Source: Paenirhizobium naphthalenivorans
GTDB taxonomy: Bacteria > Pseudomonadota > Alphaproteobacteria > Rhizobiales > Rhizobiaceae
Assembly: GCF_007992095.1 (NCBI RefSeq)
Contig: NZ_BJZP01000011.1
Coordinates: 1 to 64,000 of the forward strand
Length of the DNA stretch: 64,000 nucleotides
Reading direction: 5' to 3'
Shown: positions 1 to 21,098 of the stretch, piece by piece
Layout: the number at the start of each line of letters is the position of its first letter
Numbering within the stretch: position 1 is the stretch's first letter
Position numbers and translations under genes: made by a program
Notes under the pieces: model-generated
Seen by the model: only the letters and a program-made list of their open reading frames with translations
Told to the model about the DNA's origin: nothing
Database searches by the model: none

Positions 1-957
1 GATAAGGCCATGCTCGGGGCTATCCCAGTTCGCCTGAACGATCCGGTCGACGTCGGCATCTAGCAGGTCATCGGGATCGAGATCGGCGTGCAGGTTCACG
101 ATGCGGCCGACGACGGTGACGGTTTGCGCGTCGTCCTCAGTGGTCAGTCGGGCTGATGCATCCTTCAGCAGCTCCCGATACCGGGCGTCGATGTGGAAGG
201 CCGGCGGTGGCGGAACGTCGGGCTCCCACTCGGGAGAGAGCACGAAAGCGATATCGATCCGGGGGATCTCTGTCCGATCGATTATGCTGACCAGCTCGCT
301 GCACATGTTTGCATTGAGACCATCGGCAGCTTCGAGGATCGGGGATACGCTGTCCTCATTGAAGGACTTCACAACCGACTGGAGGCCATTCGCGATGCGG
401 CGGATCACCTTGCGACCAAAGGGGATCGTTGGTTCGATGAAGGCAAGTTCTGCCTGGTCATTGAATCCTACAGGAGACTCGATGGCGAGACCGAAGCTTC
501 CCTTGAAGGTGTGCGCGAAACGGCACCTGTCCGCGTAGTCCGACGCTTCCTTGTTCGTTCTCCGGAATGTCCGCTCGCCTGTCAGCTCGCTCATCGCGGA
601 TGCTGCGATCAGTCCCTTCATCCCATTGAGGTAGGATCTGGCTGCACGAAGCTCTATGGATTCGTTTCTGATGTAGTCGTCGGGGATCGTGGCGAGGATC
701 TTGTCGAACGCCAGGGACGTCAGGCCCGCTCGCAAAGCCGGTTCGGACAGGCTGTAGACCTGCCTGATCACCTCCAGTGCGGCAACAGCTTCGTTCGCTC
801 GCACGTCGAGATCGTCGGTGGTCGAGAAGAAGATGTTCACCGCTCCGTTCAAGCCTTCGCCGTCAGTGAGCTGGTACCTTATCAACGACGCGTCTGCGCT
901 TAAGGGAAAGACCCTCGGAAACAATGTCGAATTGTCCGAACTCGTGCTCTCTCGCAT
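1..957 (-). CDS. Hypothetical protein, 3' end cut by the window edge
   Basis: An uninterrupted minus-strand frame runs from an ATG at 957 to the left edge of the window without a stop (at least 319 codons). Its translation has ordinary soluble-protein composition, including a segment reading DRTEIPRIDIAFVLSPEW near the left edge, and no membrane helix or signal peptide that I can see. I do not recognise a family. The start is uncertain: the ATG at 957 has no clear ribosome-binding site, and a GTG at 840 is an alternative. The first 40 codons lie opposite the start of the HNH-like gene on the plus strand, so one of the two genes probably starts later or is truncated. The opposite plus frames of 1-800 contain repeated stops, so this strand is the coding one. 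Confidence 0.55.
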   Translation of the reverse strand, partial: MRESTSSDNSTLFPRVFPLSADASLIRYQLTDGEGLNGAVNIFFSTTDDLDVRANEAVAALEVIRQVYSLSEPALRAGLTSLAFDKILATIPDDYIRNESIELRAARSYLNGMKGLIAASAMSELTGERTFRRTNKEASDYADRCRFAHTFKGSFGLAIESPVGFNDQAELAFIEPTIPFGRKVIRRIANGLQSVVKSFNEDSVSPILEAADGLNANMCSELVSIIDRTEIPRIDIAFVLSPEWEPDVPPPPAFHIDARYRELLKDASARLTTEDDAQTVTVVGRIVNLHADLDPDDLLDADVDRIVQANWDSPEHGLI

Positions 958-1318
958 GATGATGACAATCAGGGATACTGTTCGGAATGCCAAAGGTCAG
1001 CAGGTGCTCCGCACCCTCAAGGACAAGAGGCTCCTTTGCTCCGAGCCGGAGATGAAGGCTCACCTCGCCGAACTGATGGTCCGACAGGAAGGTCTCTGTG
1101 CCATCACCAGACTGCCGCTGCATGTCGATGGGCAGGAGGATCTCGACTATGACATGCTCGCATCCGTAGACCGGATCGACAGCAACGGGCACTATGAGCC
1201 GAAGAACGTTCAGCTCGTCTGCCGCTTCGTGAATTTCTGGAAGTGCTCGCAGGAGAACGGCAAATTCATGGAGCTGCTGGACAAGGTCGTGTCGAACAGC
1301 CTCCAACCTCAAGCCTGA
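833..1318 (+). CDS. HNH endonuclease-like protein
   Basis: About 161 residues. The C-terminal half has a segment CAITRLPL, then an acidic stretch, then SVDRIDSNGHYEPKNVQLVC and FVNFWK. This is the layout of small HNH-type nucleases in which DRID..G.Y...N.Q.VC follows a Cys. The classical zinc CxxC pairs are incomplete, so the metal site is inferred. The ATG at 833 is preceded by GAGAAG. A GTG at 818 in the same frame is an alternative, and three consecutive Met codons occur at 956-964. The N-terminal segment YLINDASALKGKT looks like real protein, which argues against the later start. It is convergent with the KAP gene region, and its 5' part lies opposite the unknown gene on the minus strand. 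It may be the 3' part of a once longer gene. Activity is not shown by sequence alone. Confidence 0.6.
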   Translation: MFTAPFKPSPSVSWYLINDASALKGKTLGNNVELSELVLSRMMMTIRDTVRNAKGQQVLRTLKDKRLLCSEPEMKAHLAELMVRQEGLCAITRLPLHVDGQEDLDYDMLASVDRIDSNGHYEPKNVQLVCRFVNFWKCSQENGKFMELLDKVVSNSLQPQA

Positions 1319-3522: not shown

Positions 3523-3682
3523 CATTGACTCCGCGTTTCCGCGAATAGGATCGGAGCATGAGGTCTGAGTTGCAATCGAAAACTGAGGACGACTGGCCCG
3601 GAAAACGCTTCATCGATGCGGCAGTTGTCGGTCATGGGCTTTCGCGTATCGCGCTCGATATCCCCGTTGTATTTTTGACCCG

Positions 3683-4012
3683 TCACTGGAAATTCCGCGC
3701 CTTAACCTTCAAGCGGTCGATATGCAGGTCTCTGATGTAGATGTCCCTCGCCTCCGGCATCGGCTTCGGTCGGTCCTCGCATCACCGCCTCCCGCAGATC
3801 CGTGCGCGATCTCGTCGCCGCGTCCCGTCGGAAGCTTGAAGTCGATGTCGCGGTCAGCCAGCCCGGACAGATTTCCAGAAAGATCGAGGAGCTGCTGCGC
3901 GACCAGATGAACGACATCGCCCTCACGCTGGATCCGGCCGTTAATTGAGATCATGCTGGAACAGCTTCGGCCAGACCACGAGGTTCGCCACTCCGATCGC
4001 GTTGGTCGGAAG
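3683..4012 (-). pseudogene. dnaE2: Remnant of the 3' end of dnaE2 (error-prone DNA polymerase III alpha)
   Basis: Three minus-strand pieces in different frames together match the C-terminus of DnaE2. The upstream piece reads GVANLVVWPKLFQ. The middle piece, from 3954, reads INGRIQREGDVVHLVA and continues to LPTGRGDEIAHGSAG. The last piece, in another frame, reads PMPEARDIYIRDLHIDRLK and ends KARNFQ at a TGA (3683-3685). Intact DnaE2 ends with exactly this order (OB-fold ANLVVWP, GRIQREG, GRGDE..HGS, RDIYI.DLHID). At least two frame changes and loss of everything upstream make it a dead fragment. DnaE2 normally belongs to the SOS mutagenesis cassette with imuA and imuB; neither is visible here. 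Confidence 0.8.
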
Positions 4013-4306
4013 TGACGACATCATGCCACCGAGAATGCTTTACGCTCCCCTTCCGTTCCTTCATGTGAACGGAGCCAAGTCGGTCCGATTTAGGAATATT
4101 GTCACATTCCGTCAGCGATTTCGCAGATTTTCTTTTTGAATCAGCCTGCTAGGACACACCGGTAAGTGACCGGCTTTATTGAAGAAAATTTCGTCGACCT
4201 AGCCAAGAGAGGCTGTCGGGACCTTGAACGAGTTCTCCACCAGGATATTGTCGGCCGCTCGGACTGACGGACGTCCGCTTCGCACCTTCGTTTCCGGAGC
4301 CGCAAC

Positions 4307-5198: not shown

Positions 5199-5825
5199 AT
5201 GATTTCGAAGCATCTAATGATTGCCGTCAACTGGTACGGCCCTTACTGGGATCTTGATGAGGTCCGGGCCGAGGCGCGGGCGAATTGGAACCACGGACTT
5301 TACATGTGTATCGGCATGCGGCCTTATCAACGGAAGGTGAGCATGCAGTACATCGGCATCGGAGGTGCGGTCCATACGCGAATGACGCACGACCATCACA
5401 AGCTTCGCGAGGTCACACGCGAGCGGGCGATATGGCTAGGCGACATTGCCACAGCGGAACCGTCCGGGAAGCGTCTCAAGGCGACTAAGACGACACTCGA
5501 CTACGCAGAGTGGGTTCATGCGCGTTTCATGCAGCTTCCGCTCAATGAGAAGAAGACGAAGAACTTGCCTTCGCGGAGCGTCACGGTCCTGAACCGCTGG
5601 TTCAAAACCGATTACGAGACGCTAAGAAAGAATCGCCCACATCCCGACTGGCCGGATCTAATCGACTATCCCGACTATGACATGCCTGCGCGGATGATCT
5701 GGTTCGGCGGCCGCCAGCAGTACTTCCATGCTCCGGACTATGCGCGGCCGGAGCCGGCAGTTCGACCGTCGAAGCGCGTGCGGGTATCCATCGAGGTTGC
5801 CGAGCAGGAGGCGTCTGAAGATTGA
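5199..5825 (+). CDS. GIY-YIG nuclease-like protein
   Basis: 208 residues. The ATG at 5199 is preceded by AGAGGA. Around residues 30-55 the sequence has HGLYMCIG, then 14 residues later QYIGIGGAVHTRM followed by HDHHKL. A GLY...YIG pair with a following Arg on a helix is the signature of GIY-YIG nucleases. An acidic residue that could bind metal occurs downstream (YAEWVHARF), then LPSRSVTVLN. The C-terminal 70 residues (Asp/Pro/Tyr-rich) are outside any domain I know. The gene is translationally coupled to the next one (TTG start overlapping its TGA). Nuclease activity is inferred from these motifs only. Confidence 0.6.
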   Translation: MISKHLMIAVNWYGPYWDLDEVRAEARANWNHGLYMCIGMRPYQRKVSMQYIGIGGAVHTRMTHDHHKLREVTRERAIWLGDIATAEPSGKRLKATKTTLDYAEWVHARFMQLPLNEKKTKNLPSRSVTVLNRWFKTDYETLRKNRPHPDWPDLIDYPDYDMPARMIWFGGRQQYFHAPDYARPEPAVRPSKRVRVSIEVAEQEASED

Positions 5826-6511
5826 GGCATTGGGTCGACACCACGACAGATGAGGAAGCTCGCGCCCTGGATCGCGGCATGTGGGAGATGGTGGGCAGCA
5901 AGCAGCCCGACGGGACTTTTGTCGCACAGGCCGCGGGACCCGCTCCTGAAGGCGGTGAGTTCTGGTACGACGCTCTCAACCGCATCAAGGACGATCCCGA
6001 CAAACGGTACGCGATGGCACGTCGCCACCTTCCGCTACCCGCAGCGTGGCGCGAGATGGCCGTCTCGCTACGAATGAAGATTCGGAAAGCTCGGAAGGCG
6101 AAGACCGGATACGAAGCCGAGCTGCGGGAACTTCATCATCTTGCAGCGATGAGCAGTTACGCTGGTTACGGCGTAATCCAGCGTGTTCCCTACGCCCGTC
6201 TTGCCGCTCTCGACCTCTCATACGACCGTGTCGGATGTGACCACCTATCTCTTCTCGGTGTCACCGATAGCAAATGGATGCGGGAACTCTGGGGTGAGGC
6301 CGATAACCATTCCACCGCCTCGGAACTCTACGAGGACATGCTGGCCGCCGACATCCAGAGGATCAAAGCGGATGAGAAGCAGGAACGGGACGAGCTGAGC
6401 GAACGCCTATTCGGCAATCTATCCCGCGAGATCGCTGAGGAAAGCTCATCGTCGGCGTCGCCGCCCGAGAGGAGGCGACGCGGAATATTCGGCTGGCTAT
6501 TCGGACGCTGA
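5822..6511 (+). CDS. Hypothetical protein coupled to the GIY-YIG-like gene
   Basis: 229 residues, starting at TTG 5822, which overlaps the TGA of the upstream gene (TTGA). This is an arrangement for coupled translation. I do not recognise a family. Visible features are a predicted helical middle rich in Arg and Lys (residues 75-110), an acidic and charged helix near residues 185-205, and a basic C-terminus ending RRRGIFGWLFGR. That tail could be a short amphipathic membrane-binding or interaction helix. Stop-to-stop distance to the convergent AAA+/M41 gene is about 10 bases. The pairing suggests the two proteins act together, but what they do is unknown. Confidence 0.65.
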   Translation: MRHWVDTTTDEEARALDRGMWEMVGSKQPDGTFVAQAAGPAPEGGEFWYDALNRIKDDPDKRYAMARRHLPLPAAWREMAVSLRMKIRKARKAKTGYEAELRELHHLAAMSSYAGYGVIQRVPYARLAALDLSYDRVGCDHLSLLGVTDSKWMRELWGEADNHSTASELYEDMLAADIQRIKADEKQERDELSERLFGNLSREIAEESSSSASPPERRRRGIFGWLFGR

Positions 6512-6522
6512 CCTGCTTCCTG

Positions 6523-8478
6523 CTAGCCCGATCGAACCGCCCGTGGCTCGACGCGACCATCGGCATCAAGTGCATCCAGCACTTCCTGCCCCGAGAGTTC
6601 GAGGCCGGCCACCAAGGCATCCACTAGCCTCTCGCACGCCGGACGATGCCGCTCCAAGATTTCCGTCGCGCGCAGGAGCTGCTCGTTGAGAACTTTGTCC
6701 ACCCTGGCGAGGACACTGCGATCCATCCGACTGACGTCGATCATCGGTGCTTCTGAAATGTCGCCGAGCGATGCCAACCCATCGCCCATCCCGAACGACC
6801 TGTCCAACAGGATTGCCGTACGGGTCGCATCATACAGATCAGATCCCAGCCCTCCAGCCACGCCATCATCGTGACACCCCAGCAGCAACTGCTCCGCTGC
6901 CATACCTCCCAATCCCATGGCGATGGCATCGAGATAGTGCGCCTTCGTCCGACGCGCCCAGGGCCGACGTCCGAATGTCGCCTTGCCGACGGGCTGGTTC
7001 TGCGTTGTCAGAAGGATCCGTGACGAGATCTCGACGCTGACCAGTTCCATGCCGAGAACGACCCCGACGACCGCGTGGCCGATCTCGTGAACGGCGTTGA
7101 TCCTTAACGTCTCCGGAGGGATCTGCGCCGGAATGGGAAGGTGCAACAGGACATCCGCCAATTCGACAGGCCTTCGAAGCCTCCTAGCCCGGCGGTGGGC
7201 GTTACGGACAATCTTCTGGATGTCGGCGCCGGAGACCCCCTCGGACAGTTCGGCGAAAGATTTGCAACGGCCTTCGTCGAGCGCGCCTCGCATGTGCATT
7301 CGGAAGATAGCGGTCCGAGCTTTCAGATCCGGAAGCGGAATTTTGACCTGCTGATCCAGGCGACCGGACCGAAGGATCGCGGCGTCAATCTTATGCGGAT
7401 TGTTGGTGGCGGCGACGACAATGACCCCTTCGCGCCCTTCAAGGCCATCCAACTGCTCAAGCAAACCGTTGATTGTCTTGGTGTCATAGGATTCATTCTG
7501 TGTGCTGCCACTGTCCCTCGATCCGAAAGCGTCGATCTCGTCGATGAACAGGATGCAGGGCGCGTTTTTCTTCGCCTCCTGAAAGCTCCTCTGCATCGCC
7601 TTGAGGAAGTCGTTGAGGTAGCCCCTCGCCTGCCATTTCGCATAGGAAGTGACCACGAGACCTGCATTGCAGGTGGCTGCAAGCGCCTTGGCGAAGATCG
7701 TCTTCCCGGTTCCCGGAGGCCCGGAAAGCAGAACACCTTTGTCGACGTCGTCCCAGGTGATCTTTCCCGAACGCCAATCATCGAGATCGCGTGCGAGGTC
7801 GAGACCCCAGACCTTGGCGTCGCCGTAGCCTTCCATGTCTTCGAGCCTGATATCGGCAAGGATCTCGCCAGTCTTACTTGGTGCGCTTGTTACACTTGGT
7901 GCGTCTGCCCGCACCATCTTCTCGACGATGGCAAGAACGCGCGGCATGGGGCGGCCCCACGTCATCGCAAGCTTGAGGCGCCGCCAGTCGCAGTTGATCA
8001 AGGCTTCGGCCTGGTCGTCGGTGACCGTGGTCTTGTAGCCCCATCTGACGACCCCGCGCACTTGGCGGATGTCGGGTGGCTCGATCTTCACAACGATGTC
8101 GAGAGCGAAGCGGAGATCTTCCGGGATCGCCTCCTCGGACCGGAAGAAGATGATGGTCTGCTTGTGCTGCAACATGTCCATCACCGCTTCGATGTGGTGG
8201 TCCGAACGGGTCTCATCGAAGATCTTGACGTGATCCTGGAAGCGGTGGTCCGACCGCTTGTCGATGAACATGACCGCCGCCTGGACATAACTTGTCTTCC
8301 GTTCCCAGTTCTCAAGAACAAGGCCGATGGCAAAATGTGGTACGCGTCTGTAAGGCCGCAGGGCCCGGCTGATGCTTGCATAGGCGAGGAATTCCGGTAG
8401 CGAGAAGCCTGCCCGGTCGCGAAGTACGTTTTTCATTGTGTGTGATCCCGAATTGAAGATGATGCGGTCGGCGCTCAT
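6523..8478 (-). CDS. Soluble FtsH-like AAA+ ATPase with M41 metalloprotease domain
   Basis: 651 residues. The N-terminal 220 residues match nothing I know. An AAA+ module follows: Walker A GPPGTGKT near residue 253, Walker B ILFIDEIDAFGSR, sensor-1 VVAATN, and an arginine-finger region SGRLDQQV. A C-terminal M41-type peptidase domain has AVHEIGHAVVG (the HExxH zinc site) and a later GSDLYDATR that supplies the third ligand Asp, as in FtsH. Unlike FtsH there are no N-terminal membrane helices, so it should be cytosolic. Start is uncertain: ATG 8478 lies 12 bases after the upstream stop, and ATG 8436 is possible. It forms an operon with the TnsA-like gene. ATP-driven proteolysis is expected from the motifs; the substrate is unknown. 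Confidence 0.85.
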   Translation of the reverse strand: MSADRIIFNSGSHTMKNVLRDRAGFSLPEFLAYASISRALRPYRRVPHFAIGLVLENWERKTSYVQAAVMFIDKRSDHRFQDHVKIFDETRSDHHIEAVMDMLQHKQTIIFFRSEEAIPEDLRFALDIVVKIEPPDIRQVRGVVRWGYKTTVTDDQAEALINCDWRRLKLAMTWGRPMPRVLAIVEKMVRADAPSVTSAPSKTGEILADIRLEDMEGYGDAKVWGLDLARDLDDWRSGKITWDDVDKGVLLSGPPGTGKTIFAKALAATCNAGLVVTSYAKWQARGYLNDFLKAMQRSFQEAKKNAPCILFIDEIDAFGSRDSGSTQNESYDTKTINGLLEQLDGLEGREGVIVVAATNNPHKIDAAILRSGRLDQQVKIPLPDLKARTAIFRMHMRGALDEGRCKSFAELSEGVSGADIQKIVRNAHRRARRLRRPVELADVLLHLPIPAQIPPETLRINAVHEIGHAVVGVVLGMELVSVEISSRILLTTQNQPVGKATFGRRPWARRTKAHYLDAIAMGLGGMAAEQLLLGCHDDGVAGGLGSDLYDATRTAILLDRSFGMGDGLASLGDISEAPMIDVSRMDRSVLARVDKVLNEQLLRATEILERHRPACERLVDALVAGLELSGQEVLDALDADGRVEPRAVRSG

Positions 8479-8490
8479 GGGCGCTATGCG

Positions 8491-9105
8491 TCATCCTCGT
8501 ATCCGGCGAACCTGGCTCTCCGGGCTCAACAGGTCATAATCGAGATCGACCTCCAGGAACCCTTGAAGGATCAGCGACGCCAGTGTTGGCATCGGCCGGC
8601 CTTCCTGGATCACCGACAGGCATTCCGCGATGGTGAGCGACCCCATTTCCTCAAGGCCGGCCAGCAGACGAATCCTGTCGCCGAGCGCCGGCCGGTAGAA
8701 CCCGTATCGGAGAAGATCCTTCGCGTTCCGGAGACGGACGCTTTCGGCGAAGTCGATCATGGCCACGGATCGGTATCGATGACCCATGGATTTAATCTCG
8801 GCGGATAGCCAGATCGGCGGCATCGGCTCCTCCTGCCCGACATCGATCAGGAAGGATCCGCCCTCTGTAAGGACCATGAAATCGAGCTGGTACTCGTCGT
8901 CTCCGTTCCGGAGTAGCGGCGGCGCCGTACTCCATCGGGCGACGTCGGGGTCGAGATCCAACAGGCAGGCGAAGTCCCTCGCCTGCTGGGATCGGAATTG
9001 CGCACGGCCATCGCACTTGATGGTCGCCATCGGTGTGTAAATTGGAGAAGGCGTGACCTTGTGCGGGACGGCATCGTCCCTTCGGTCATCTGAGACTACC
9101 TTCAT
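8491..9105 (-). CDS. TnsA-like (PD-(D/E)XK fold) protein
   Basis: 204 residues from the ATG at 9105, which has GAGGG six bases upstream; an upstream in-frame TTG at 9150 lacks this. The sequence has QFRSQQARDFACLLDLDPD, then APPLL, then YQLDFMV and SFLIDVGQEE. This is the order of TnsA N-terminal nuclease domains (E/Q helix, D-F strand, E/D-x-K strand). The usual catalytic EVK is replaced by IDVGQEE, so activity may be altered or lost. A later segment, RNAKDLLRYGFYRP, matches the family's NAKLL.RYR block. It is the first gene of a two-gene operon with the AAA+/M41 protease. No TnsB, TnsC or TniQ is seen nearby, so it is not part of an evident Tn7-type transposon. Confidence 0.6.
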   Translation of the reverse strand: MKVVSDDRRDDAVPHKVTPSPIYTPMATIKCDGRAQFRSQQARDFACLLDLDPDVARWSTAPPLLRNGDDEYQLDFMVLTEGGSFLIDVGQEEPMPPIWLSAEIKSMGHRYRSVAMIDFAESVRLRNAKDLLRYGFYRPALGDRIRLLAGLEEMGSLTIAECLSVIQEGRPMPTLASLILQGFLEVDLDYDLLSPESQVRRIRG

Positions 9106-9322
9106 GGCATCCCTCGAAAACGAAACGCAGAACAGGGCGACACCGGACAAAGCCGGAGTGCGTCAGCGTATTCGTAGCGAGTGGTGCGCGAAGGTGCTCA
9201 TGGACGGGAACGAATACAGAACATGCGGGAGGGCGTCAAGACCCATTTGCGGCGGCTGGGCTGGGTCCCGGCGGCCAACGGTTAATGCATGCCACTGGGT
9301 ATCGGCCGGTAGCATCTACCTG

Positions 9323-9425: not shown

Positions 9426-12400
9426 TTGCGTCTGAAAGAGCTTTCCGATCACGATCTGCGCATCGAGTTCAATCGCAGCCGCGATAACATGGTTCGTCTC
9501 GAGGAAATCAGCGGAGTGCTGAAGCCTCGAAAATCAGATGAGGCGATCGAACTCCACATGGAGGTTCTTGGCCTGCTCCGACGTTTGAGGAAATCGACGG
9601 GTGTCACCCAGAAAACGCCGACTAGGCATTGGAATGCCGCATTCCTCCTAAAGCGCGGTCTTCACTCTCCAGATGGACGTCCGCTGCATCAGTATCGGAT
9701 GACAGATCAGGAGTATGTAGAGCTCAGGCAGAGCTTGCGCTTGTCTACCGCGAGGTTGTTGCAGGAGGATGGTCCTGCGGCGAGCATGTTTGTGGCCTTC
9801 TGTGCGGAGTGGTTCCGACGCGAGGCAACAACGCTGTTCCTGAAATGGGACGCGGTTGCCGCTGAAGTTCTTCGCGATATCCCGGACCACACCAAACGAA
9901 ATCTGACGAGTATTGGAGTCGGCTACTGGAAGCGTCGGCTGATCAGATCGGAATCGAGTCGAGAATTCCTTCTCACGCTCGCACTTGAGGGCGGGATTTC
10001 GGCGCACCTCCTGGCAGATGGTGGATCGACTTGGCTTGCCGACTACCTGCGAACCATCATGCGGTTTGCCCTTACAGGCGTGGATCGTGAGCACATCCAT
10101 GGATTTGCTCACGACATGTCGTGGAAGGTGCCCACTTCATATCGGCAGGAAGGATTAGTCGACCTCTGTTGCGAACTTATCGTCGAACTCGTGAAATGGC
10201 GTAAAGCACTTGATCAAGCGCCGTCGAACATCGATCCGGTACGATATCTTGATGCGCACAATCCGGACTGGAAAGAAAGCCTTCCGATCTACATGTCTGC
10301 CGAGCACGACGAGATCGCGCGGAAGCTGTTGGGCGGCCTGCTCAACGAGAAGGTTGGCGCGATCTCCGGATCAGGCATCGGCGCTGAACGTTACCTCTGC
10401 TTCAATGGAGAGAGGTGGCAGCCGGCCCTCCTTTTGAACGCTGAAGGTGAAGTACCAGCTAGCCGTCTGGCGGAAATCCCGCTGAATGGTCGGTGGAAAG
10501 CGAGTCCTTCGGGATCCCTTGCGAACTTTCTTCCGAGCCAGATCGCGCTGTTTGAGCCTCCAGTTGAGGGGGCGCACGCGTGGCGGGTTCGTCCGCTGGT
10601 ATCGCTGGGAAAGCTGATTGTCGGCTTTCCATTAAGTGAAAGTGTGACGGCGAACCTTACTTGTGGATCGGAGGCCATCTCCGTTGTCTGGCCCAAAGGC
10701 GCGCCCGTCACCTCACAAATTGCAACATTCATTCCGGACGAGGGATCGGATCCGGCACTGCCTCGGAAGATGAGGCTTGCAAAGACCGGATCCGCAAGTC
10801 TGCCCCCTCCTCTCGTCTACGTTCTGGTGCCAACCGACTGGAAGGCGACGGCGGCGGACGGGACGACCCTTGGTCAAACTTGGTCCGTCGACAATTTCCG
10901 CACACTTCACGCCGTCTCCGGCACCGTCTATTTCGCGAAACCCGGCGCTTCGACCGGAGAGCGATACCGTGTCGAGGCCGGGAAAGATGAACGGCAGGAA
11001 AGCCTGGAAATACTGTCGTCGGCGTCGGCTACGATCCATACGGACGACGAGTTCGAGCTCTGCGAAGGATCGGTCAGTTTCAAGATCGCTTTGCCCGTCG
11101 GGTCGCGTCAGCCAAGACGAGGTGAACTCCAGTATCGGCGACTTGGAGAAGTGTGGAGGCCGGTTCTTGATGGGAGAATATCCGAGCATGGGCTTTTCGA
11201 TGTCTCTTGGCGAGATCCGGTCGCCGACATCCAACTGGAACGACGACGTATAGCCGTCCTACCCAATGGAGCCAGGATCCAAGGTCGGATGACAGGTGCC
11301 ACCGAGGGTGTGATTACCTGTGAATCCCTGCCCGACTGGAACGTCGAGCTTCCCGACGACATGAACCTGATCGAACAATCCGGCGAGGGATTGAAGTTCT
11401 CTTTCGTTGGGAAGCCTCGCTACAAGGTCGCAGTCAGGTTGCGGACATGCGGCGGTCAATACTTCTCGGCCACCGTTCCGCTTAGAGGCCGAGAGGCATC
11501 TATCATCCTCAGCGACGGGAAGGTTGCCTCGGCCGGGCAAGAGATCGATATCACCGCACTACGCGGTGCGATCGCGGTGTCCCCGCACACGACGACGCTG
11601 ACGGTTGCTCCTCGGATCTCGAAATCGAATTCGCTGCAGTTCAAGTTTGCTGACGAATTTCCTTTGTCGGCTCTGAAGAGAGTAATGGAGGAGTTCATTG
11701 CACAAATCGGGGATCAGGATGCCGTCTTGGAACTCGATTTCCTCGGTGACTCCCGAAAGCCGATCTGCCTGAAGCAATATCGCTACCCTCGGCCAAGGAT
11801 GCTCGATGGCGCTGTGGTGTTCTCCTCCGAATTCACCGAACAGCCCGTCGCGCGAATGATCATGAGCCCTGAAAGAGAGCATCTCCTCAGGGCTACGGCA
11901 GACGGCGCGTACGAGCTCCCGGACTGGTGTCGGGGGCCTTGCCTTGTATACCTGCGCGATGGTCCAGATGTCGTATCCCGTCCATTGCTCGTGCACTTGC
12001 AACTGGAGAAAGCTCCGAGAACACCATTGCAGTCCGCTCTCGCACAGCAGGAATACGCAAGGCTTCGGTCCGAGTTGCAGATGGCCGTCGATCTCCTGAT
12101 GGAAGGACAGCTCCCCAACGAAGATGTCAGGTTTCTGGTGGGACTCGTAGGCTCACTGAACGGTCTTCCGGCATCGGCATTCGAGGTGCTGAAACAGATC
12201 GCTCTCCAGCCTCGTGCCCTGGTCCGCTTGCTTTTGTCTGCGGCGACCGACGGTGAACGCCAAGCGATCTGGAATCTGCAGGAACAACTACCGTTCCTTT
12301 GGCTAACCATTCCTTCCAGCGCATGGGAGGAAGCCTTCGTCGCAACGCGTGATGCGCTCGAAGCTGCTCTTTCGATACTTCCCGAAGAGATGCGACAGAA

Positions 12401-12827
12401 CCTGCTTATCGAACAACTCAAATCGATGCGTGCCAGCGTCCTTGCGCTGGAACCGGGATTGGATCGAATGTTCGTGAAATTCGGCTTTCCGGAAACGGCA
12501 ATGCCTACGCTCGAGGATGTCCTGCAGAATTTCATGCGGGAACAGAGGATGTTCGACGACGACACGGTGATATCGGCCAAGCGGAGAGATCCAGTTCTCG
12601 AGCAGGTCCTGTCTGCAGGAATAAGACTGCCTACCATATTCCATAACTTCAGTGTCGAGGACTTCGACGGGGTCGTAGCTCCTGTTGCATTGGCGGCCGC
12701 GTCTCGAGGGATGCTGACGATCACCCCTTCCAGCGACATCCTGCTGCGAAAAGCTCTTCGCGAGCACAGCAGATACGTTTCATTTGCATACGCACACGTC
12801 GTGCGCCATTTCGAGGTCACAAATTGA
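9426..12827 (+). CDS. druH: Druantia type III protein DruH (STY4851-like family)
   Basis: 1133 residues, starting at TTG 9426 with a strong GGAGGGGG five bases upstream. The large protein has no recognisable catalytic motif, signal peptide or membrane segment. Its length and its position directly before a 2000-residue DUF1998 helicase are those of DruH, the only other component of type III Druantia anti-phage systems. The downstream gene overlaps by four bases (TTGA). Type I and II Druantia carry other small genes (druA-D or druM/F/G), which are absent here. The identification therefore rests mainly on architecture and on the helicase partner. The biochemical role of DruH is not established. 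Confidence 0.8.
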   Translation: MRLKELSDHDLRIEFNRSRDNMVRLEEISGVLKPRKSDEAIELHMEVLGLLRRLRKSTGVTQKTPTRHWNAAFLLKRGLHSPDGRPLHQYRMTDQEYVELRQSLRLSTARLLQEDGPAASMFVAFCAEWFRREATTLFLKWDAVAAEVLRDIPDHTKRNLTSIGVGYWKRRLIRSESSREFLLTLALEGGISAHLLADGGSTWLADYLRTIMRFALTGVDREHIHGFAHDMSWKVPTSYRQEGLVDLCCELIVELVKWRKALDQAPSNIDPVRYLDAHNPDWKESLPIYMSAEHDEIARKLLGGLLNEKVGAISGSGIGAERYLCFNGERWQPALLLNAEGEVPASRLAEIPLNGRWKASPSGSLANFLPSQIALFEPPVEGAHAWRVRPLVSLGKLIVGFPLSESVTANLTCGSEAISVVWPKGAPVTSQIATFIPDEGSDPALPRKMRLAKTGSASLPPPLVYVLVPTDWKATAADGTTLGQTWSVDNFRTLHAVSGTVYFAKPGASTGERYRVEAGKDERQESLEILSSASATIHTDDEFELCEGSVSFKIALPVGSRQPRRGELQYRRLGEVWRPVLDGRISEHGLFDVSWRDPVADIQLERRRIAVLPNGARIQGRMTGATEGVITCESLPDWNVELPDDMNLIEQSGEGLKFSFVGKPRYKVAVRLRTCGGQYFSATVPLRGREASIILSDGKVASAGQEIDITALRGAIAVSPHTTTLTVAPRISKSNSLQFKFADEFPLSALKRVMEEFIAQIGDQDAVLELDFLGDSRKPICLKQYRYPRPRMLDGAVVFSSEFTEQPVARMIMSPEREHLLRATADGAYELPDWCRGPCLVYLRDGPDVVSRPLLVHLQLEKAPRTPLQSALAQQEYARLRSELQMAVDLLMEGQLPNEDVRFLVGLVGSLNGLPASAFEVLKQIALQPRALVRLLLSAATDGERQAIWNLQEQLPFLWLTIPSSAWEEAFVATRDALEAALSILPEEMRQNLLIEQLKSMRASVLALEPGLDRMFVKFGFPETAMPTLEDVLQNFMREQRMFDDDTVISAKRRDPVLEQVLSAGIRLPTIFHNFSVEDFDGVVAPVALAAASRGMLTITPSSDILLRKALREHSRYVSFAYAHVVRHFEVTN

Positions 12828-15800
12828 AGCCGTTTGCCACTCTCTCCGAGATCCGTCGTCGATCCGCCGAAGCAATCATCTCCCAGTCCGGCATTCGAGA
12901 CACGCATCTGGTCGATCATCTTCGGCGGGTTTTCAATGCTGAAACTGCCGCCGCCGGCGGATTGCTTCAGCAGCCGATAATCGAGGGTGCACATCCATTC
13001 ATCCCGGCCGCGGTCAACATGGCTCGCGTCCCTTCGAAAGTTCTGCACCCTCGATTTGTCGAGGTGATAGATGGGCTCGCTGAAGGCAGCGATTATCGGT
13101 TTCCGAAGACCAGACGTCCGTTCAGACACCAGTTGGAAGCTTGGGAACACCTCTCGAAGCAAGGCGCCCCGCAGTCGGTCCTTGTTACATCTGGCACAGG
13201 CTCCGGAAAGACGGAATGCTTCCTCTTCCCAATCCTAAGTGACCTCGTATCGCAGGCAACCAGCAGCAATGGAAAGATCGAGGGGGTGCAGGCGATAATG
13301 CTGTACCCCCTAAACGCCCTGATCGAGAGCCAGCGCGAACGGTTGTCGGCATGGACTCGGCCATTCGGTGGAAGCATTCGATATTGCCTATACAATGGTG
13401 ACCTGCCGAACTCGCAGCCAGAAAGCCTGAAGCGCGTCACTCCAGAACAGCAGATCGATCGAGAGCAGCTCCGATCAAGCCCGCCGCCGATCCTCGTGAC
13501 GAACGTGACGATGCTCGAGTACATGCTCGCGAGGGCCGAGGATCAGCCGATCATTGAAAAATCCAAGGGCCAGCTCAAGTGGATTGTCCTGGACGAAGCG
13601 CATTCACTGGTCGGTGCCGCAGCGGCGGAGATAGCCCTGCTTCTTCGTCGAGTCCTTCTGGCATTCGACTGCAAGCCCGAGGAGGTACATTTCGTCGCTA
13701 CGTCCGCGACCATCGGATCGGGAGACGACATCCAGAACCAGTTGAAACGATTCCTCGCGGATGTCGCCGGGATTGCCGACGCGAATGTGCATGTGGTCGA
13801 GGGCGAGAGGCAGCTTCCGGTTCGACCCGCCTCTCGGGCAAGGCTACCAAGTTCTGACAGACTTGAGAAAATGGACGGCGGTGAGCTGTTCAATGCTCTC
13901 GCATCGGACGACACAGCGTGGGATTTCGTCGCGAACAAGCTGTTTGTTCGCCCTCAAACATTGTCGGAAATGGAAAACGTCGCGAGGCGGCTGGGACTCG
14001 ATGCTGAACGTTTCATGAGCCTTCTGGCGAATGCGAAGCGGACCAATCCGGAAACTGATGAGCCTGAAAACCTTGCGCCGATGAGGATTCATGGATTCGA
14101 GCGTGCCGTTCCGGGCCTATGGAGCTGCGTCAATCCCAACTGCAAAAGCGCACCAGCAGGCTGGGGATTCGGAGAAATCTTCATCGACCCGAGGGATGCG
14201 TGCCCGACATGCTCCGCGCCCGTGCTTGAGATCATAAGTTGCCAGGAATGCGGCGAGGTAGTCCTTGAAGCGCACGACGATGCAGCAAACGACAGGATTC
14301 AGTCGACGCGTCGCGGCATCGACTCAGATGAATTCGAGTTCGAAGCTCTTCGTGACCAGGACGACCCCGAAACAGATGACGAAACTCAGGGCGAGGAGAC
14401 GGTCGGCGTAGCCTATCCTGAGGTCCGTAGAACAATCCTTCTGCGGCCTGAAGGGGCAGCGGGATTTCGACCTCTGCACCTCTCGACCGAGGGATGGCAG
14501 ACTAGACCAGCCAAGGACGCTGACACCGTGACGGTGTCGTATGAAGAGAAGGCTGATTTCTGCCCCTGCTGCGGTAAGACCTCTACCCGAGGTGTTGATA
14601 GCCTGCTCAGGCCTGCCCGCTTCGGAGCGCCGTTCATGATTGCCAACGCGGCTCCAATCCTTCTGGAGGGTGTGGATCCTGGTCGGGTGGATATCTCGGT
14701 CCCATCACAGGGGCGTCGACTTCTATCCTTCACCGATAGTCGTCAAGGTACTGCGCGGATGTCGGCGAAGATGCAGGCAGAAGCCGAGCGAAACTTCGTC
14801 CGTTCATTTGTCTACCATACCGTTCAGCATTCGATATCTACAGCTACCCAGGTTGATACCACGGCGCTCAAGGAGGAGATTGCAGGGCTGGAAGCAGTTC
14901 TGGCTGCCACGCCGATCGTCGCGGTACAGAACATTCTCGAATCCAAGCGACGTGAGCTTGCCGATGCTGGTGCCGAGCGTCTGGAGGGGATTGCGTGGAA
15001 CGAGATGGTCAGCCGCCTCAGTGAAAGAAGCGAGGTTGATCGGTGGCTGAAGGAGGTGTGGGCACCTAGAGATCCGCGTCTATTTAGTGGCAGTGTGGAA
15101 CTCGCGGAATTCCTGCTTCTCCGGGAACTCGCAAGACGTCCGCGAAAAGCTCTGTCCCTTGAGACCCTTGGAATGGCGCGCTTACGCTTCCCGGTGATCG
15201 ATGGTCAGCAGGCGCTGCCCACCCCATTCGCACGGCGAGGGAAAACCATCCATGACTGGCGGGCTTTCCTTTACGCGATCACCACGTTCTTTATGCGAGG
15301 TAACGCAGCGGTTTCGGTTCATGGCGATTTGATGCATTGGATCACGCCCCGAGCCAAGACCAAGGGAATCCTGAGCCCCGGTGCAAAAACGCTTGGGGAT
15401 CGCCGTAAGTTGGCATGGCCGGGTGTACCACGAAATCTGGCCATGCTCTCAACGCCGCAAGCGTTGCTGGTGAGCGGGCTTGGGCTTGATATCACGCTTG
15501 CCGATCACCGGGCTGACATCGAAGAATGCTTCGACAGGGCTTGGCACAACCTCCTGCCCTTGTTCAGCGATGACCCGGATAAACGTGCGCTGGACCTGCG
15601 GAAATCCTTCATCGCTCCTGTTACTGATGGATTCCTATGCCACACGACGCGCAGGGTTCTCGATTTCGCTCCGTTTGGCACCAGTCCTTTCGCACAGGGC
15701 ACACAACGGTCAAAACCCAGTCCCGCCGAACCCGTCCAACTGCCGCGGCATCCGAAACCCCTTCTGGGCGAGGCAGATCCCGCGGCGGCCCGGGCAGAAA

Positions 15801-18800
15801 TTGGTCATTGGCTTGAAGAAGCCGAAGCTGTCACGCGCCTTCGAGCATCCGGAGCCTGGAACAATATCTCGGACCGTGTCGCGCTCTTCGCGGAATATGC
15901 ACGATCCGCCGAACACTCAGCTCAACAGGACAGCGCCCTTCTGCGCACGTACGAGCAGAAGTTCAAAGATGGTGAGGTCAACATCCTGAACTGCTCGACG
16001 ACCATGGAGATGGGCGTCGATATCGGTTCCGTCTCCACAGTCATGATGACGAACGTGCCACCTTCCGTAGCAAGCTATAAGCAACGGGTCGGTCGTGCCG
16101 GTCGACGTGGTCAGGCTTTCTCTCTGGCCTTTACCTTCTGCCGTGATCGTCCCTTGGACAGGGAAGCCTTCGTTTCCCCGATCAGCTACCTCAATCGATC
16201 ACTCGCCGCACCTCGGGTGGCCCTGAGCAGCCGCCCGATCGTTCAGCGGCATGTAAATGCTTTCCTGCTTCGGCGGTTCATGGTGGGTCGCGGCGGGGAC
16301 CCGATCCGGATGACCATCGGTGCATTTCTAGGTGTGCCGGCCGCTGTGGGCGAGCGGCGCTTACTGCTGGAGCAGCGTCCGATCGCGCATTTCAAGGAAT
16401 GGCTGCAGGCACCTACGACGGCAGCGGTCGTCGAGACCGAACTGGAACGTCTGGTCAGACATTCGGTGCTTGAAGGCGAGAAGGTGATGATCGACGCCTG
16501 CCTTCAGGCGGTCACGGATCTTGAGGAGTTGTTCCAGAGTGAATGGGACGGTCTCCAGGCTCTTGCCAAGGATGAAGGCGTTAAGGGTGCTGGTCGCAGC
16601 AGAATGGGCATGGAGCTTCAGAGGCTCTGCGACGAATTCCTGCTCAGTGCACTTGCTGATCGTGGTTTCCTTCCTGGTCACGGCTTCCCGACCGGGGTGG
16701 TGACGTTTCTTCCCCATCGCTCAAAATCGGATCAGCCGACGGATGGTCGGCGTGCAACTAGATTGTCCGGTCCTCAAAGGTCACTTGATCTGGCGATTAG
16801 GGATTATGCGCCAGGATCGGAGATCGTTCTCGATGGACTGGTGCACAAATCCGCCGGTGTCCTGCTGAACTGGAAGCGACCAGCCACAGAGGAGAACATT
16901 CGAGATGTTCAGAGCCTGAAATTCCACTGGAATTGCAGACGATGCGGAACGAGCGATTCCAGTCGGACAAGACTGACTGCATGTTCAGCATGTGCAGGGC
17001 CAGTGACTAGCACACAATACCTGCGTCCGGCCGGTTTCTCAGTTGATGTTCGAGACAAGGTCCACGCGGAAACCGACATGATCTCCTACGTGGCTCCCGA
17101 AGAGCCGAGTGTGTCGGTGAGAGGTGCTCCCTGGGTCTCTCTTCCTATCCCGGAGCTGGGTCGTTTCCGGAGCACAAGAGAGGGAGCTGTATACTACAGC
17201 AATAGAGGTTCATCCAAGAACGGCTATGCTCTTTGCCTCCATTGCGGGAGGGCCGCACCCGATCACCCGATGCTAGACACCGGCGATGTCGACCAAACCA
17301 CGCCATCCCCCCTCGCAGCACACGCGCCCCTGCGATGGAAGAAGGACGAGAGCGCTCTCGTGTGCGAGGGCAACAGCAATGCCTGGTCAGTCCGCAGGAA
17401 CTTGGAACTGGGCTATGAGATCACGACCGATGTGTTCGAGATCCAGCCTTCAGCTCCTTTGAGCAAGGCGGCTGCCACCGCACTGGCGATAGCGATCCGT
17501 GAGGGTACCGCTCGCGTCCTTGGCATCGAGGCCGACGAGATGGGCTTCGCAACTAAAACTTCCGAAGGCTTCCTTGGTGGGCGGGCGGCATCTTTGTTGG
17601 TGTTCGACAAGGCAGCAGGTGGCGCAGGTTTCGCGGCCTCAATTCCCGGACATCTTTCGAGGGTCCTTTTTGAAGCCACCGAGGTCCTAGACTGCGCCAA
17701 TGCTGGTTGCACAAGCGGATGCGCAGCTTGTGTTCTGGTCCGCGACGCCCCTTTCGAACCAGGTTCGCTCGATAGGATCAGCGCGCTCCGCTTCGTACGG
17801 AATCATCTCTCATTCGACTTGGAATTGAGCCAGGAGGATAGGATTTCGAAAGACTCGACGATCTCGACCTCCGTTCTCGACGAGGTCGAACGTGCGCTGA
17901 GGGAGGGCCAGAAGCCTAGCTTGCAGGTCTATCTGCCTGCAGAAACTGATGCCGGCGAGTTGGCGGCATGGCCACTCATCTCGGTACTGGATAGATGGCG
18001 CCTCCATGGCCACGCCATTGGATTTGTGGTGTCCGAAGAGTTCATGAAGGCCAGCGACACCGCCGGTCGGCTTGCCCTCTACGATCTGGGCAAGAGGTTT
18101 GCCACGAGTGCCACGCCGTTCCCTCTCTTTGTGGGGCCGATTCCTGCCGCTGGCAACGGCAGCAAGATAGGAGTTGCAGTGAGCAGCAATGGTATCAGCA
18201 TGGTCTGGGCTTCCAGGGACGACAGACCATGGCTTCCGGGGGATATGTGGGGTGCGCCAGTGGAACGACCGATCGTCAGGGGGGCGTTCGAACTTTCTCG
18301 TGACATCACACCACTGGATGAAACGGCACTCCTTCCGTCACCGGGTTCGAAGTACGAGACCATCACGAACGAACTCGACCGTCCCGCATCCTTGTTCGGT
18401 ACCGCGATGGCGAACAGGATTCGCAGCCTGGTTGCCCAGCTCGGCGTCCCGAAAGGGCAGAAAGTAACATCCATCAGGTATAGTGATCAGTATGTGCGGT
18501 CGCCACTGGTGGCGAAGCTGTTCATCGATACCGTGGCTGATTTGGTGAAAGGATCAGCTCCGACGATCGAGCTGCTTACCTCGCCTCCCACTCCTCGTAA
18601 CAACATGCAGTATCGGGTTTTCGATGACTGGCGGGACGGCCCGGAAGCGGAGCAGTCAATTCGCGCCTACGCTCAGGAGAAAGGACTGACCATGGCTGTT
18701 CAGTTCGCCCAGATCCCACATGGAAGGTACATGGATGTCATATTCGAGGGCGGCCTCACGGTGACTCTGGTCTTTGACCAAGGTTTTGGCGCGTGGCGAA

Positions 18801-18940
18801 CGACAGCAAGTGGCGGAAACATCCGTCATGATTTTGGGGCTCCCCTTGTTCGTCAGGCGAATGCGCTTGCTCGTCTTTCGATCCCTCTTGCTCGCAATGG
18901 GCACGGGCCGACGTACATCGTGGCGTCAAGGATAAAGTGA
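12824..18940 (+). CDS. druE: Druantia helicase DruE (DEAH/DUF1998)
   Basis: 2038 residues. Visible helicase motifs are Walker A TSGTGSGKTEC near residue 122, DEAH in WIVLDEAHSLVG near 255, ATSATIG near 293, and in the second RecA domain MEMGVDIG near 1060 and QRVGRAGRRGQ near 1087. Zinc-ribbon-like cysteine pairs occur around residues 430-480 and near 1370. The DUF1998 (MZB) domain, with KAAGGAGFA followed by a CANAGCTSGCAAC cluster, lies near 1595-1640. The C-terminal 250 residues contain RYSDQYVRSPL. This order and size fit DruE, the common component of all Druantia types. It starts at TTG 12824 within the stop of druH, so the two are translationally coupled. Loss of either would be expected to abolish defence. 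Confidence 0.9.
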   Translation: MKPFATLSEIRRRSAEAIISQSGIRDTHLVDHLRRVFNAETAAAGGLLQQPIIEGAHPFIPAAVNMARVPSKVLHPRFVEVIDGLAEGSDYRFPKTRRPFRHQLEAWEHLSKQGAPQSVLVTSGTGSGKTECFLFPILSDLVSQATSSNGKIEGVQAIMLYPLNALIESQRERLSAWTRPFGGSIRYCLYNGDLPNSQPESLKRVTPEQQIDREQLRSSPPPILVTNVTMLEYMLARAEDQPIIEKSKGQLKWIVLDEAHSLVGAAAAEIALLLRRVLLAFDCKPEEVHFVATSATIGSGDDIQNQLKRFLADVAGIADANVHVVEGERQLPVRPASRARLPSSDRLEKMDGGELFNALASDDTAWDFVANKLFVRPQTLSEMENVARRLGLDAERFMSLLANAKRTNPETDEPENLAPMRIHGFERAVPGLWSCVNPNCKSAPAGWGFGEIFIDPRDACPTCSAPVLEIISCQECGEVVLEAHDDAANDRIQSTRRGIDSDEFEFEALRDQDDPETDDETQGEETVGVAYPEVRRTILLRPEGAAGFRPLHLSTEGWQTRPAKDADTVTVSYEEKADFCPCCGKTSTRGVDSLLRPARFGAPFMIANAAPILLEGVDPGRVDISVPSQGRRLLSFTDSRQGTARMSAKMQAEAERNFVRSFVYHTVQHSISTATQVDTTALKEEIAGLEAVLAATPIVAVQNILESKRRELADAGAERLEGIAWNEMVSRLSERSEVDRWLKEVWAPRDPRLFSGSVELAEFLLLRELARRPRKALSLETLGMARLRFPVIDGQQALPTPFARRGKTIHDWRAFLYAITTFFMRGNAAVSVHGDLMHWITPRAKTKGILSPGAKTLGDRRKLAWPGVPRNLAMLSTPQALLVSGLGLDITLADHRADIEECFDRAWHNLLPLFSDDPDKRALDLRKSFIAPVTDGFLCHTTRRVLDFAPFGTSPFAQGTQRSKPSPAEPVQLPRHPKPLLGEADPAAARAEIGHWLEEAEAVTRLRASGAWNNISDRVALFAEYARSAEHSAQQDSALLRTYEQKFKDGEVNILNCSTTMEMGVDIGSVSTVMMTNVPPSVASYKQRVGRAGRRGQAFSLAFTFCRDRPLDREAFVSPISYLNRSLAAPRVALSSRPIVQRHVNAFLLRRFMVGRGGDPIRMTIGAFLGVPAAVGERRLLLEQRPIAHFKEWLQAPTTAAVVETELERLVRHSVLEGEKVMIDACLQAVTDLEELFQSEWDGLQALAKDEGVKGAGRSRMGMELQRLCDEFLLSALADRGFLPGHGFPTGVVTFLPHRSKSDQPTDGRRATRLSGPQRSLDLAIRDYAPGSEIVLDGLVHKSAGVLLNWKRPATEENIRDVQSLKFHWNCRRCGTSDSSRTRLTACSACAGPVTSTQYLRPAGFSVDVRDKVHAETDMISYVAPEEPSVSVRGAPWVSLPIPELGRFRSTREGAVYYSNRGSSKNGYALCLHCGRAAPDHPMLDTGDVDQTTPSPLAAHAPLRWKKDESALVCEGNSNAWSVRRNLELGYEITTDVFEIQPSAPLSKAAATALAIAIREGTARVLGIEADEMGFATKTSEGFLGGRAASLLVFDKAAGGAGFAASIPGHLSRVLFEATEVLDCANAGCTSGCAACVLVRDAPFEPGSLDRISALRFVRNHLSFDLELSQEDRISKDSTISTSVLDEVERALREGQKPSLQVYLPAETDAGELAAWPLISVLDRWRLHGHAIGFVVSEEFMKASDTAGRLALYDLGKRFATSATPFPLFVGPIPAAGNGSKIGVAVSSNGISMVWASRDDRPWLPGDMWGAPVERPIVRGAFELSRDITPLDETALLPSPGSKYETITNELDRPASLFGTAMANRIRSLVAQLGVPKGQKVTSIRYSDQYVRSPLVAKLFIDTVADLVKGSAPTIELLTSPPTPRNNMQYRVFDDWRDGPEAEQSIRAYAQEKGLTMAVQFAQIPHGRYMDVIFEGGLTVTLVFDQGFGAWRTTASGGNIRHDFGAPLVRQANALARLSIPLARNGHGPTYIVASRIK

Positions 18941-20659: not shown

Positions 20660-21098
20660 TATGTCGGGTTCCGGTCAGCGGAGGATGTCGACCGCCCCCT
20701 TCCCACACGCCAGTCATCAGCCAGAATTCGTAACAGGCGAGCCAATCGATCGCCCAAGGAACCGTCGTTTCCGAAATCAGATCCCATCCGCTCCATTCAT
20801 GCTTTGCCGGATCGAAAAGACACATGAACGGATCCCTGTCGCGATTGTAGACGTGCGGCAGCGATCCCTCGGGATTATCCGGGAGTCGTGTCAACGACGG
20901 GCTTATCACGCAGACGCGCGGCCCTGAGATCACGAAGTCCGTGCAGTAGCTGATTGCGATGTCGTACGTCCGCATGAGAGGCTTCAAGGGGCCTCTCCAT
21001 CCGACGACATCGTTACCGACGGTCTGGCTTCCGAATGACGGCCAGGTCGCGCGCATCGCCGCGACCTGCTCCCTGATGGTGTGAGGAAGCAGCGCCAT
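20187..21098 (-). CDS. CBASS E2-like conjugating enzyme, probably with a disrupted 3' end
   Basis: Residues 1-145 match the E2-only proteins of short type II CBASS: YDIAISY, SLPHVY, DPFMCLFDP with the probable active-site Cys, TTVPWAIDWLACYE, and the terminal WEGGGRHPP. In the family the protein ends soon after GGG.HP. Here the frame stays open for another 155 codons of Arg-rich, out-of-phase sequence inside the patatin gene, down to 20187. Deleting one base in the CCTCC run after the His codon would give HPR and a TGA just before the patatin ATG. A one-base frameshift, in the genome or the read, is therefore likely, and the true end would be near 20670. It starts at ATG 21096-21098, overlapping the CD-NTase stop by one base (TGATG). 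The role is E2-like modification of the CD-NTase to enhance signalling. Confidence 0.72.
   Translation of the reverse strand: MALLPHTIREQVAAMRATWPSFGSQTVGNDVVGWRGPLKPLMRTYDIAISYCTDFVISGPRVCVISPSLTRLPDNPEGSLPHVYNRDRDPFMCLFDPAKHEWSGWDLISETTVPWAIDWLACYEFWLMTGVWEGGGRHPPLTGTRHNVGTTDELYSSAALRWNHRTHSDQAAVAEGPSVPNPFARRRWNSRPLRSRLSRRDRAKVSWRRIHCQLLRYGRRHVDWRHHCPWPRNRKVGCGNLEDLQRARRVHLPGSEVRDRPLASRKVVLPSEASKLQPSGRAAPCLRSRGSGFLYLPRSCALF

Follow-up and report, generated by a model that had tools for sequence, protein, structure and literature searches.

An apparently inactive TnsA paralogue encoded with an AAA+/M41 protease: a possible accessory operon of Tn7-like transposons

The window analysed here, nucleotides 1 to 64,000 of contig NZ_BJZP01000011.1 of Paenirhizobium naphthalenivorans, carries two adjacent genes on its minus strand, one for a zinc protease of the AAA+/M41 type (PROT) and one, directly upstream, for a smaller protein (DEG) that looks, by sequence comparison and from its predicted model, like a paralogue of the transposase subunit TnsA with both TnsA domains kept and catalysis lost throughout the family. 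The pair is tentatively read as an operon with an accessory role in Tn7-like transposons of Hyphomicrobiales, a reading to which we give a probability of roughly 0.38. The components and the element type are known; their combination appears to be new. The two genes are as follows.

6523..8478, minus strand: PROT, AAA+/M41 zinc protease of 651 amino acids, from its open reading frame and profile matches
8491..9105, minus strand: DEG, TnsA paralogue that is catalytically dead by sequence, 204 amino acids from ATG or 219 from an upstream TTG at 9150

PROT consists of an N-terminal alpha/beta domain (about residues 1-200), an AAA+ ATPase domain (about 245-440; Pfam AAA, E 4e-34) and an M41 protease domain (about 455-632; Peptidase_M41, E 5.5e-14). 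In an alignment of 51 sequences, dereplicated from 66 of more than 600 residues, the zinc site formed by HEIGH at 464-468 and Asp547 is invariant (H464, E465, H468 and D547 in 51/51), as are the ATPase residues K259 of Walker A, D313 and E314 of Walker B, and R370 and R373, which we take to be arginine fingers. The first-pass annotation, made from the letters of the window, had called an AAA+/M41 protease with an intact HEIGH motif and a third-ligand Asp within 6523-9105, and this call is borne out. It had also called the protein cytosolic, which fits the window protein, where nothing in residues 1-250 resembles a membrane helix (the 19-residue Kyte-Doolittle mean peaks at 0.78); for the family as a whole solubility is left unsettled by the 10 of 51 aligned sequences with means above 1.6. 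The predicted model of PROT (predicted local distance difference test, pLDDT, 88; predicted template modelling score, pTM, 0.66) matches FtsH structures, mostly over about 445-455 columns, with a best E of 1.2e-24. No solved structure in the PDB was matched by the sequence of the N-terminal 205 residues (best E 0.32), and no Pfam family was found for them. Among PADLOC families, only general AAA parts of PROT were matched, the AAA domain scoring best against IetA (8.9e-28).

The DEG gene lies 12 bp upstream of the PROT gene on the same strand, and the spacing that had been read from the two open reading frames is correct. By sequence DEG has no Pfam match at E 0.1, no matching PADLOC family and nothing usable in the PDB (best E 1.1), and its score against NCBIfam TnsA_like_Actin, 26.5 bits, is below the cut-off of 110. 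A fold search of the PDB with its AlphaFold2 model (pLDDT 93.7, pTM 0.84) returned at the top the Tn7 TnsABCD transpososome, the TnsA/TnsC complex and TnsA (E 2.7e-6 to 1.3e-4). Comparison of the model with the TnsA structures 9bw1, 1f1z and 1t0f gave Z 9.2-9.5 over 178-185 residues, and the next chain reached Z 6.9 over 59. Alignment of the DEG profile with co-resident TnsA by hhalign covered 178 columns at 95% probability (E 3.5e-8), the homology spanning the length of DEG. Modelling of both proteins, which the first-pass annotation had suggested, thus points to FtsH for PROT and to TnsA for DEG.

The catalytic residues of TnsA are taken here to be Glu, Asp and Lys. In the DEG alignment (57 of 61 dereplicated sequences; L039, L064, L069 and L101 were left out) the Glu position is Ala in 57/57, the Lys position is never Lys (0/57) and the central Asp is kept in 55/57. 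By comparison, 17 TnsA proteins picked from the same loci, with weaker candidates such as L065, L072, L078, L081 and L091 excluded, have Glu in 17/17, Asp in 17/17 and at the third position Lys in 14 and Arg in 3. Because Glu and Lys are lost and profile homology to TnsA is retained, DEG is probably a TnsA paralogue whose whole family has lost catalysis. The replacement of the catalytic EVK by IDVGQEE noticed in the window was read rightly, and the catalytic Glu has been lost as well. The mean net charge of DEG is -4.3 versus +3.2 for the 17 TnsA, whose charges spread so widely (one is at -7) that the acidity of DEG is a weak sign against DNA binding. Proteolysis triggered by DNA recognition, as had been suggested for the pair, found no positive support, the partner being devoid of the catalytic residues and on average acidic. 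In the host of the closest relative (L124), a 463-residue protein in the TnsA position (L124:18581-19972) reads IDFLH, by eye, at the expected Lys, and judging from this motif it may lack the catalytic Lys too.

To find relatives, one genome of each species was scanned, using the DEG alignment and one peptide pattern. Of the 85 relatives obtained the best 80 were kept; because a single pattern was used, distant relatives elsewhere can be missed. The genera of these 80 loci presumably all belong to Hyphomicrobiales. In 72 of the 80, all from other genomes, PROT lies directly downstream of DEG on the same strand, so that the adjacency of homologues, a check proposed along with the original annotation, turned out to be common. 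A strict script found 66 of them, and in the other six the PROT frame opens further upstream (L035, L043, L063, L082, L099 and L109). The PROT frame is split or shortened in at least 7 of the 72. Among the remaining eight loci, L064 and L066 reach contig ends, PROT is partial in L084 and missing from L039, L067, L069, L080 and L101; DEG is broken in L067 and L069. Where the pair is annotated in the database, its members are called 'hypothetical protein' and 'AAA family ATPase'. Between the window and the relative L030, the ratio of non-synonymous to synonymous substitution rates (dN/dS) is 0.055 for DEG and 0.118 for PROT, and the window copies of both genes are under purifying selection.

The DEG profile matched 6 of 385 genomes of a class sample, and the five matches besides the own genome were weak (E 3.9e-10 to 2.7e-4); one weak match, in G750, was rejected as being TnsA at the head of a TnsABC-TniQ operon. 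A search of viral contigs for DEG yielded 15 pattern matches and no true relative. In three genomes (Aquibium L044/L057, M. sophorae L054/L059 and AFS084561 L038/L099) the DEG-PROT pair occurs twice on one contig, the copies lying about 21 kb from each other. Such doubled loci are perhaps tandem insertions of related elements; their equal spacing may stem from the listing of non-overlapping loci only.

Within 10 kb of the pair, the longest flank scanned, 31/80 loci have TnsB, TnsC or TniQ at a profile score of 50 or more, and 23/80 have all three. The genes DEG-PROT-TnsA-TnsB-TnsC-TniQ follow one another in one direction in L058, L063, L065, L072, L074, L076, L078, L081, L091 and L109; in L061, L070, L071, L077, L088, L106 and L107, TniQ-TnsC-TnsB-TnsA points away from DEG-PROT. 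Many loci carry TnsA in addition to DEG. A wider search for TniQ covered 38 of the 49 loci with no tns gene within 10 kb (L039, L059, L066-L069, L079, L084, L085, L099 and L103 were excluded; L103 shares its genome with L032 and is counted from there). It found TniQ on the same contig, 13-48 kb off, in 18 further loci, which brings those with TnsB, TnsC or TniQ within 50 kb to 49/80. The shared contig was checked by its length or, for L044, by position, and the 18 are counted by distance only; in the hosts of two of them, L030 and L032, the tns operon reads towards the pair, which may therefore belong to a neighbouring element. TniQ exceeded the cut-off in 33 of the 37 host genomes of the wider search (own genome aside), a figure whose comparison with the order sample described next is descriptive because the hosts were chosen.

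That order sample, an even one of 397 genomes, contained 10 genomes with a DEG match, 6 with an intact pair (own genome included), 41 with TniQ and 31 with TnsB (E 1e-10). All six genomes with an intact pair carry both TniQ and TnsB, versus TniQ in 41/397 overall (Fisher p 8.6e-7); the four genomes with a fragment or weak DEG match only have neither. In the own genome, a second pair on contig C48 heads a run DEG-PROT-TnsA-TnsB-TnsC-TniQ, its PROT being 40% identical to that of the window. The first-pass annotation had suspected an undescribed defence module in the pair, and as a stand-alone module this is not supported, with Tns genes or TniQ near the pair in 49/80 loci and with TnsB and TniQ in 6/6 intact-pair genomes. 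It had also named, as the outcome that would count against a defence module, a TnsA-like protein always found with transposition genes: the company is frequent, as the same 49 loci attest, and it is not constant, since 31/80 loci, the window and four plasmid loci are without it in the sequence searched.

Element ends were searched by pattern in eight relatives (L072, L078, L074 and L081; L070, L071, L088 and L106), and repeats downstream of TniQ are present in at least three copies in 6/31 elements. In Rhodopseudomonas palustris JSC-3b, the repeats behind TniQ recur in inverted orientation 21.5 kb off and enclose the pair together with the tns genes. The proposed ends, TGTGGGTCACCCCATAAAGG and TGTGGTTCACCTCATAAGGA, are alike at 16/20 positions as terminal inverted repeats, and immediately outside them lies a 4-bp direct repeat, CCAC, where 5 bp would be typical of Tn7. 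The ends proposed for Agrobacterium vitis CG78 span 26.5 kb, again with pair and tns genes enclosed; the inner repeats are alike at 13/18 positions, and a 5-bp direct repeat, GAGTG, is present. Each pair of ends was picked by scanning many combinations, so that these short direct repeats may be due to chance; stronger evidence for ends comes from the clustered inverted sites. In the cargo of the two delimited elements, 4 of 10 tested open reading frames match PADLOC families: OLD-like and Ppl/mad3-like in the R. palustris element, E2-E1-JAB and PDC-S73 in that of A. vitis. The R. palustris element also carries a metallophosphoesterase. This gene was considered as a third member of the unit and dropped, having been met at too few places (8 loci in the cluster count and several plasmids).

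From gene order, active-site conservation, predicted folds and location we infer how the pair might work, as regards both the binding of DEG to PROT and the substrate. The dead TnsA would dock on TnsB/TnsC, or on the product complex, as TnsA does, and would thereby serve as a substrate adaptor. DEG would bind PROT, presumably through the N-terminal domain of the latter, which stands in place of the membrane part of FtsH; PROT, presumably a hexamer like FtsH, would then unfold or degrade the bound transposase subunits. The outcome might be a dismantled post-transposition complex, a step ascribed to host ClpX in Mu and proposed for it in CRISPR-associated Tn7-like systems, or a low level of transposase. 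A role directed at transposase is favoured by the descent of the partner from TnsA, by its having kept both domains of the fold and by the enrichment of the pair near Tn7 operons. That the protease acts on transposase, its own element's or a rival's taken jointly, is slightly better than an even bet. The fuller idea, that a mobile element encodes its own machine for transpososome disassembly and turnover in which a dead transposase paralogue is the adaptor of a dedicated AAA+ protease acting on the resident's or a rival's complexes, falls somewhat short of even odds.

Several results weigh against an accessory role for the resident transposon. In 31/80 loci, neither TnsB, TnsC nor TniQ was found within 50 kb in the sequence searched, some of which ends at contig edges, with 11 loci outside the wider search; the genomes of L062 and L075 hold an apparent pair (the protease frame of L062 being split) and gave no TniQ match. 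The 64-kb window itself contains no tns gene by profile, its contig starting 6.5 kb from PROT. Of the 8 relatives searched for ends, just 2 yielded both. Among plasmid records, DEG was found in 16, a PROT relative (E 1e-60) in 21 and both in 13; TnsB and TniQ profiles were unmatched in 4/4 plasmid pair loci with their 20-kb flanks (L110-L113). In 8 of the 21 plasmid records with PROT there is no DEG match. PROT relatives without DEG stand in L170, L171 and L173 with no tns gene in the examined flank, and in L172 (Bosea) one stands before tnsABC-tniQ. Metallophosphoesterases were noticed near these DEG-less plasmid loci (L170-L173), and TIR proteins in L171.

The trees weigh on the same side. 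Mantel correlations (profile score of at least 100, or 60 for TnsA; L033, L056, L079 and L103 dropped) are 0.61 for DEG-PROT (69 loci), 0.85 for TnsB-TnsC (27) and 0.76 for TnsB-TniQ; those between the pair and the transposition genes are 0.23 for DEG-TnsB (29 loci), 0.28 for DEG-TnsC, 0.33 for DEG-TniQ and 0.16 for PROT-TnsB (28), with permutation p 0.001-0.043. Tracking is weak, and the pair therefore moves from one element to another, as cargo or an interchangeable module would. Defence cargo or the exclusion of rivals is no less compatible with this mobility than service to the resident transposase. A PIN-domain-like gene (VapC-like by eye) recurs near the pair in 28 loci (e.g. L070:7716-8408 and L076:12806-13408); the agreement of its tree with that of DEG (Mantel r 0.55, 28 loci) is closer than that of the Tns trees, and it may belong to the exchanged block. 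A cytosine DNA methyltransferase-like gene, again by eye, recurs nearby in 18 loci (e.g. L107:14505-16520).

Because the trees of pair and transposase track each other only weakly, defence cargo is a serious rival: the pair would be an anti-phage or anti-plasmid module that often rides on Tn7-like elements, in which the dead TnsA senses a phage protein or a DNA-end complex and the protease destroys proteins of the invader or of the cell. The four plasmid loci with a pair and no TnsB/TniQ in their flanks fit this idea, as do the PADLOC families among the element cargo, the Druantia III, PDC-S49 and CBASS genes near the window pair, a CBASS-type operon that adjoins the pair in L112, and the TIR proteins beside the DEG-less PROT of L171. 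However, enrichment near Tn7 genes and a partner of TnsA ancestry are unexpected for generic cargo, and neither the lack of any PADLOC family for DEG nor the match of general AAA parts in PROT favours it; we consider defence cargo unlikely, if the strongest of the alternatives. Less probable again is an exclusion between elements, whereby the dead TnsA would capture TnsB/TnsC of rival Tn7-like elements for destruction by the protease and guard the resident from displacement or tandem insertion. It would explain the TnsA ancestry together with the poor tracking of the resident TnsB, and also an intact, selected pair with no tns genes found, as in the window (dN/dS 0.055-0.118). The three genomes with two nearby pairs on one contig mean that such exclusion is at least incomplete.

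Catalytically dead TnsA makes Tn7 transposition replicative. DEG might accordingly be an alternative subunit that replaces TnsA, ends cutting of the 5'-strand and turns cut-and-paste into replicative transposition, the protease controlling the switch. The full TnsA fold kept in DEG and the TnsA retained beside it in many elements would suit such a role; yet the protease is left without a clear reason and the DEG tree tracks TnsB weakly, which makes this quite improbable. That the adjacency is due to chance, or that the pair is a functionless, decaying remnant, has hardly any probability. Truncation of the neighbouring dnaE2 and of a TniQ-side gene in the window, where tns genes were not found, would agree with decay, but conservation already contradicts it, with adjacency in 72/80 loci, active-site residues invariant in 51/51 sequences and dN/dS well below 1.

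Among known systems, FtsH shares with PROT the AAA+ plus M41 architecture, the zinc site of HEXXH plus Asp and the closest PDB matches. PROT of the window differs in lacking N-terminal membrane helices, in having another N-terminal domain of about 200 residues and in forming an operon with a TnsA paralogue, and it scores 195.4 bits against the FtsH equivalog TIGR01241, whose cut-off is 600. DEG resembles TnsA in its two-domain fold and in its profile homology to the co-resident TnsA, but it lacks the catalytic Glu and Lys (57/57), often stands alongside a real TnsA and shares an operon with a protease. In IetAS, the partner IetS is subtilisin-type. Of the PADLOC families, IetA gives the best score for the AAA domain of PROT; the protease of PROT is a zinc M41 domain on one chain with the ATPase, a subtilisin-type IetS partner is lacking, and no S8 domain was found in the seven window proteins scanned. 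To our knowledge, transposition control of the proposed kind has otherwise been described for host factors alone, ClpX among them. An unfoldase that brings its own putative adaptor and lies beside Tn7-type operons would be a testable natural candidate for complex disassembly, and if the pair acts on rival elements or phages, a transposase subunit would have been recast as a sensor for proteolytic immunity.

ClpX/ClpXP offers a parallel, as an AAA+ unfoldase proposed to disassemble the transposase-DNA complex (PMC12326709), and MuA is a substrate of ClpXP (PMC5415555). Host ClpX, toxic in human cells, benefits wild-type PseCAST, and evolved TnsB variants no longer need it; in the passages covered, disassembly of a Tn7-type product complex in cells is still presented as a hypothesis (PMC12326709). 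ClpX, however, is host-encoded and general, whereas PROT is encoded near or in the element, with the protease fused to the ATPase and a putative dedicated adaptor. Tn7-like transposons whose accessory and target-selection genes can be swapped have a core of TnsABC plus TniQ and carry defence cargo (PMC8649781, PMC10293859). FtsH is absent from the main texts of both papers, and the word 'protease' is absent from the former and, in the passage of the latter that was covered, refers to reagents only. No protease-TnsA pair was found described for Tn7-like elements in the literature searched, including passages of PMC8649781, PMC10293859, PMC12326709, PMC9371665 and PMC13345079, supplements lying outside the search; within the same limits, the earlier opinion that the pair fits no named system stands.

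The window copy and its surroundings can be set beside the closest relatives, L030-L034, whose DEG is 85-96% identical. Three of these five have TnsB, TnsC and TniQ on the contig that carries the pair, with 10-18 kb between the pair and the closest tns gene. The window is partly colinear with the host of L030, sharing DEG, PROT, the gene gB, a conserved stretch at 3997-4198, the end of dnaE2 and the end of the gene at 884-1318. TnsB of the closest relative's type was absent from a search of the own genome and the homology stops at nucleotide 884, for which reasons the window island is regarded as rearranged; its copy is an intact pair whose tns genes are either lost or unassembled. They may lie just beyond the contig start, as the TniQ-side gene at 884-1318 first suggested, although homology to the relative ends at 884. 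The neighbouring features are listed below.

884..1318, plus strand: truncated gene of which about 137 codons of the 3' part remain; its complete copy stands directly behind TniQ in L124 (85% by tblastx)
1498-3525, minus strand: KAP-type NTPase, candidate defence family PDC-S49 (E 2.2e-133), between the 884-1318 gene and the dnaE2 remnant
3683..3960, minus strand: 3' remnant of dnaE2, about 93 codons, named from a reading of the full-length protein in L124
5199..5825, plus strand: gA, unknown protein, overlapping gB by 4 bp
5822..6511, plus strand: gB, unknown protein convergent with PROT, also beside PROT in L030 (90% by tblastx) and L034 (75%)
9426..18940, plus strand: Druantia type III (DruH 9426-12827, DruE3 12824-18940), a neighbour outside the pair
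19601-20659, minus strand: CBASS patatin-type effector, adjoining Druantia III
21098-22351, minus strand: CBASS oligonucleotide cyclase
22863-23771, plus strand: CBASS CapP-like peptidase
25723-26493, plus strand: gene with an 'NAD glycohydrolase translocation' domain, followed by an open reading frame of 1415 residues (span 25723-30737)

Defence genes around the pair, as claimed in the first-pass annotation, are thus present. The gene at 884..1318 looks HNH-type by eye, a name that no NCBIfam or PADLOC profile backs, and gA and gB have no Pfam, NCBIfam or PADLOC match. The 1415-residue open reading frame matched nothing in Pfam (E 0.001) or PADLOC (E 1e-5), and the genes at 25723-30737 are possibly an unrecognised two-gene system.

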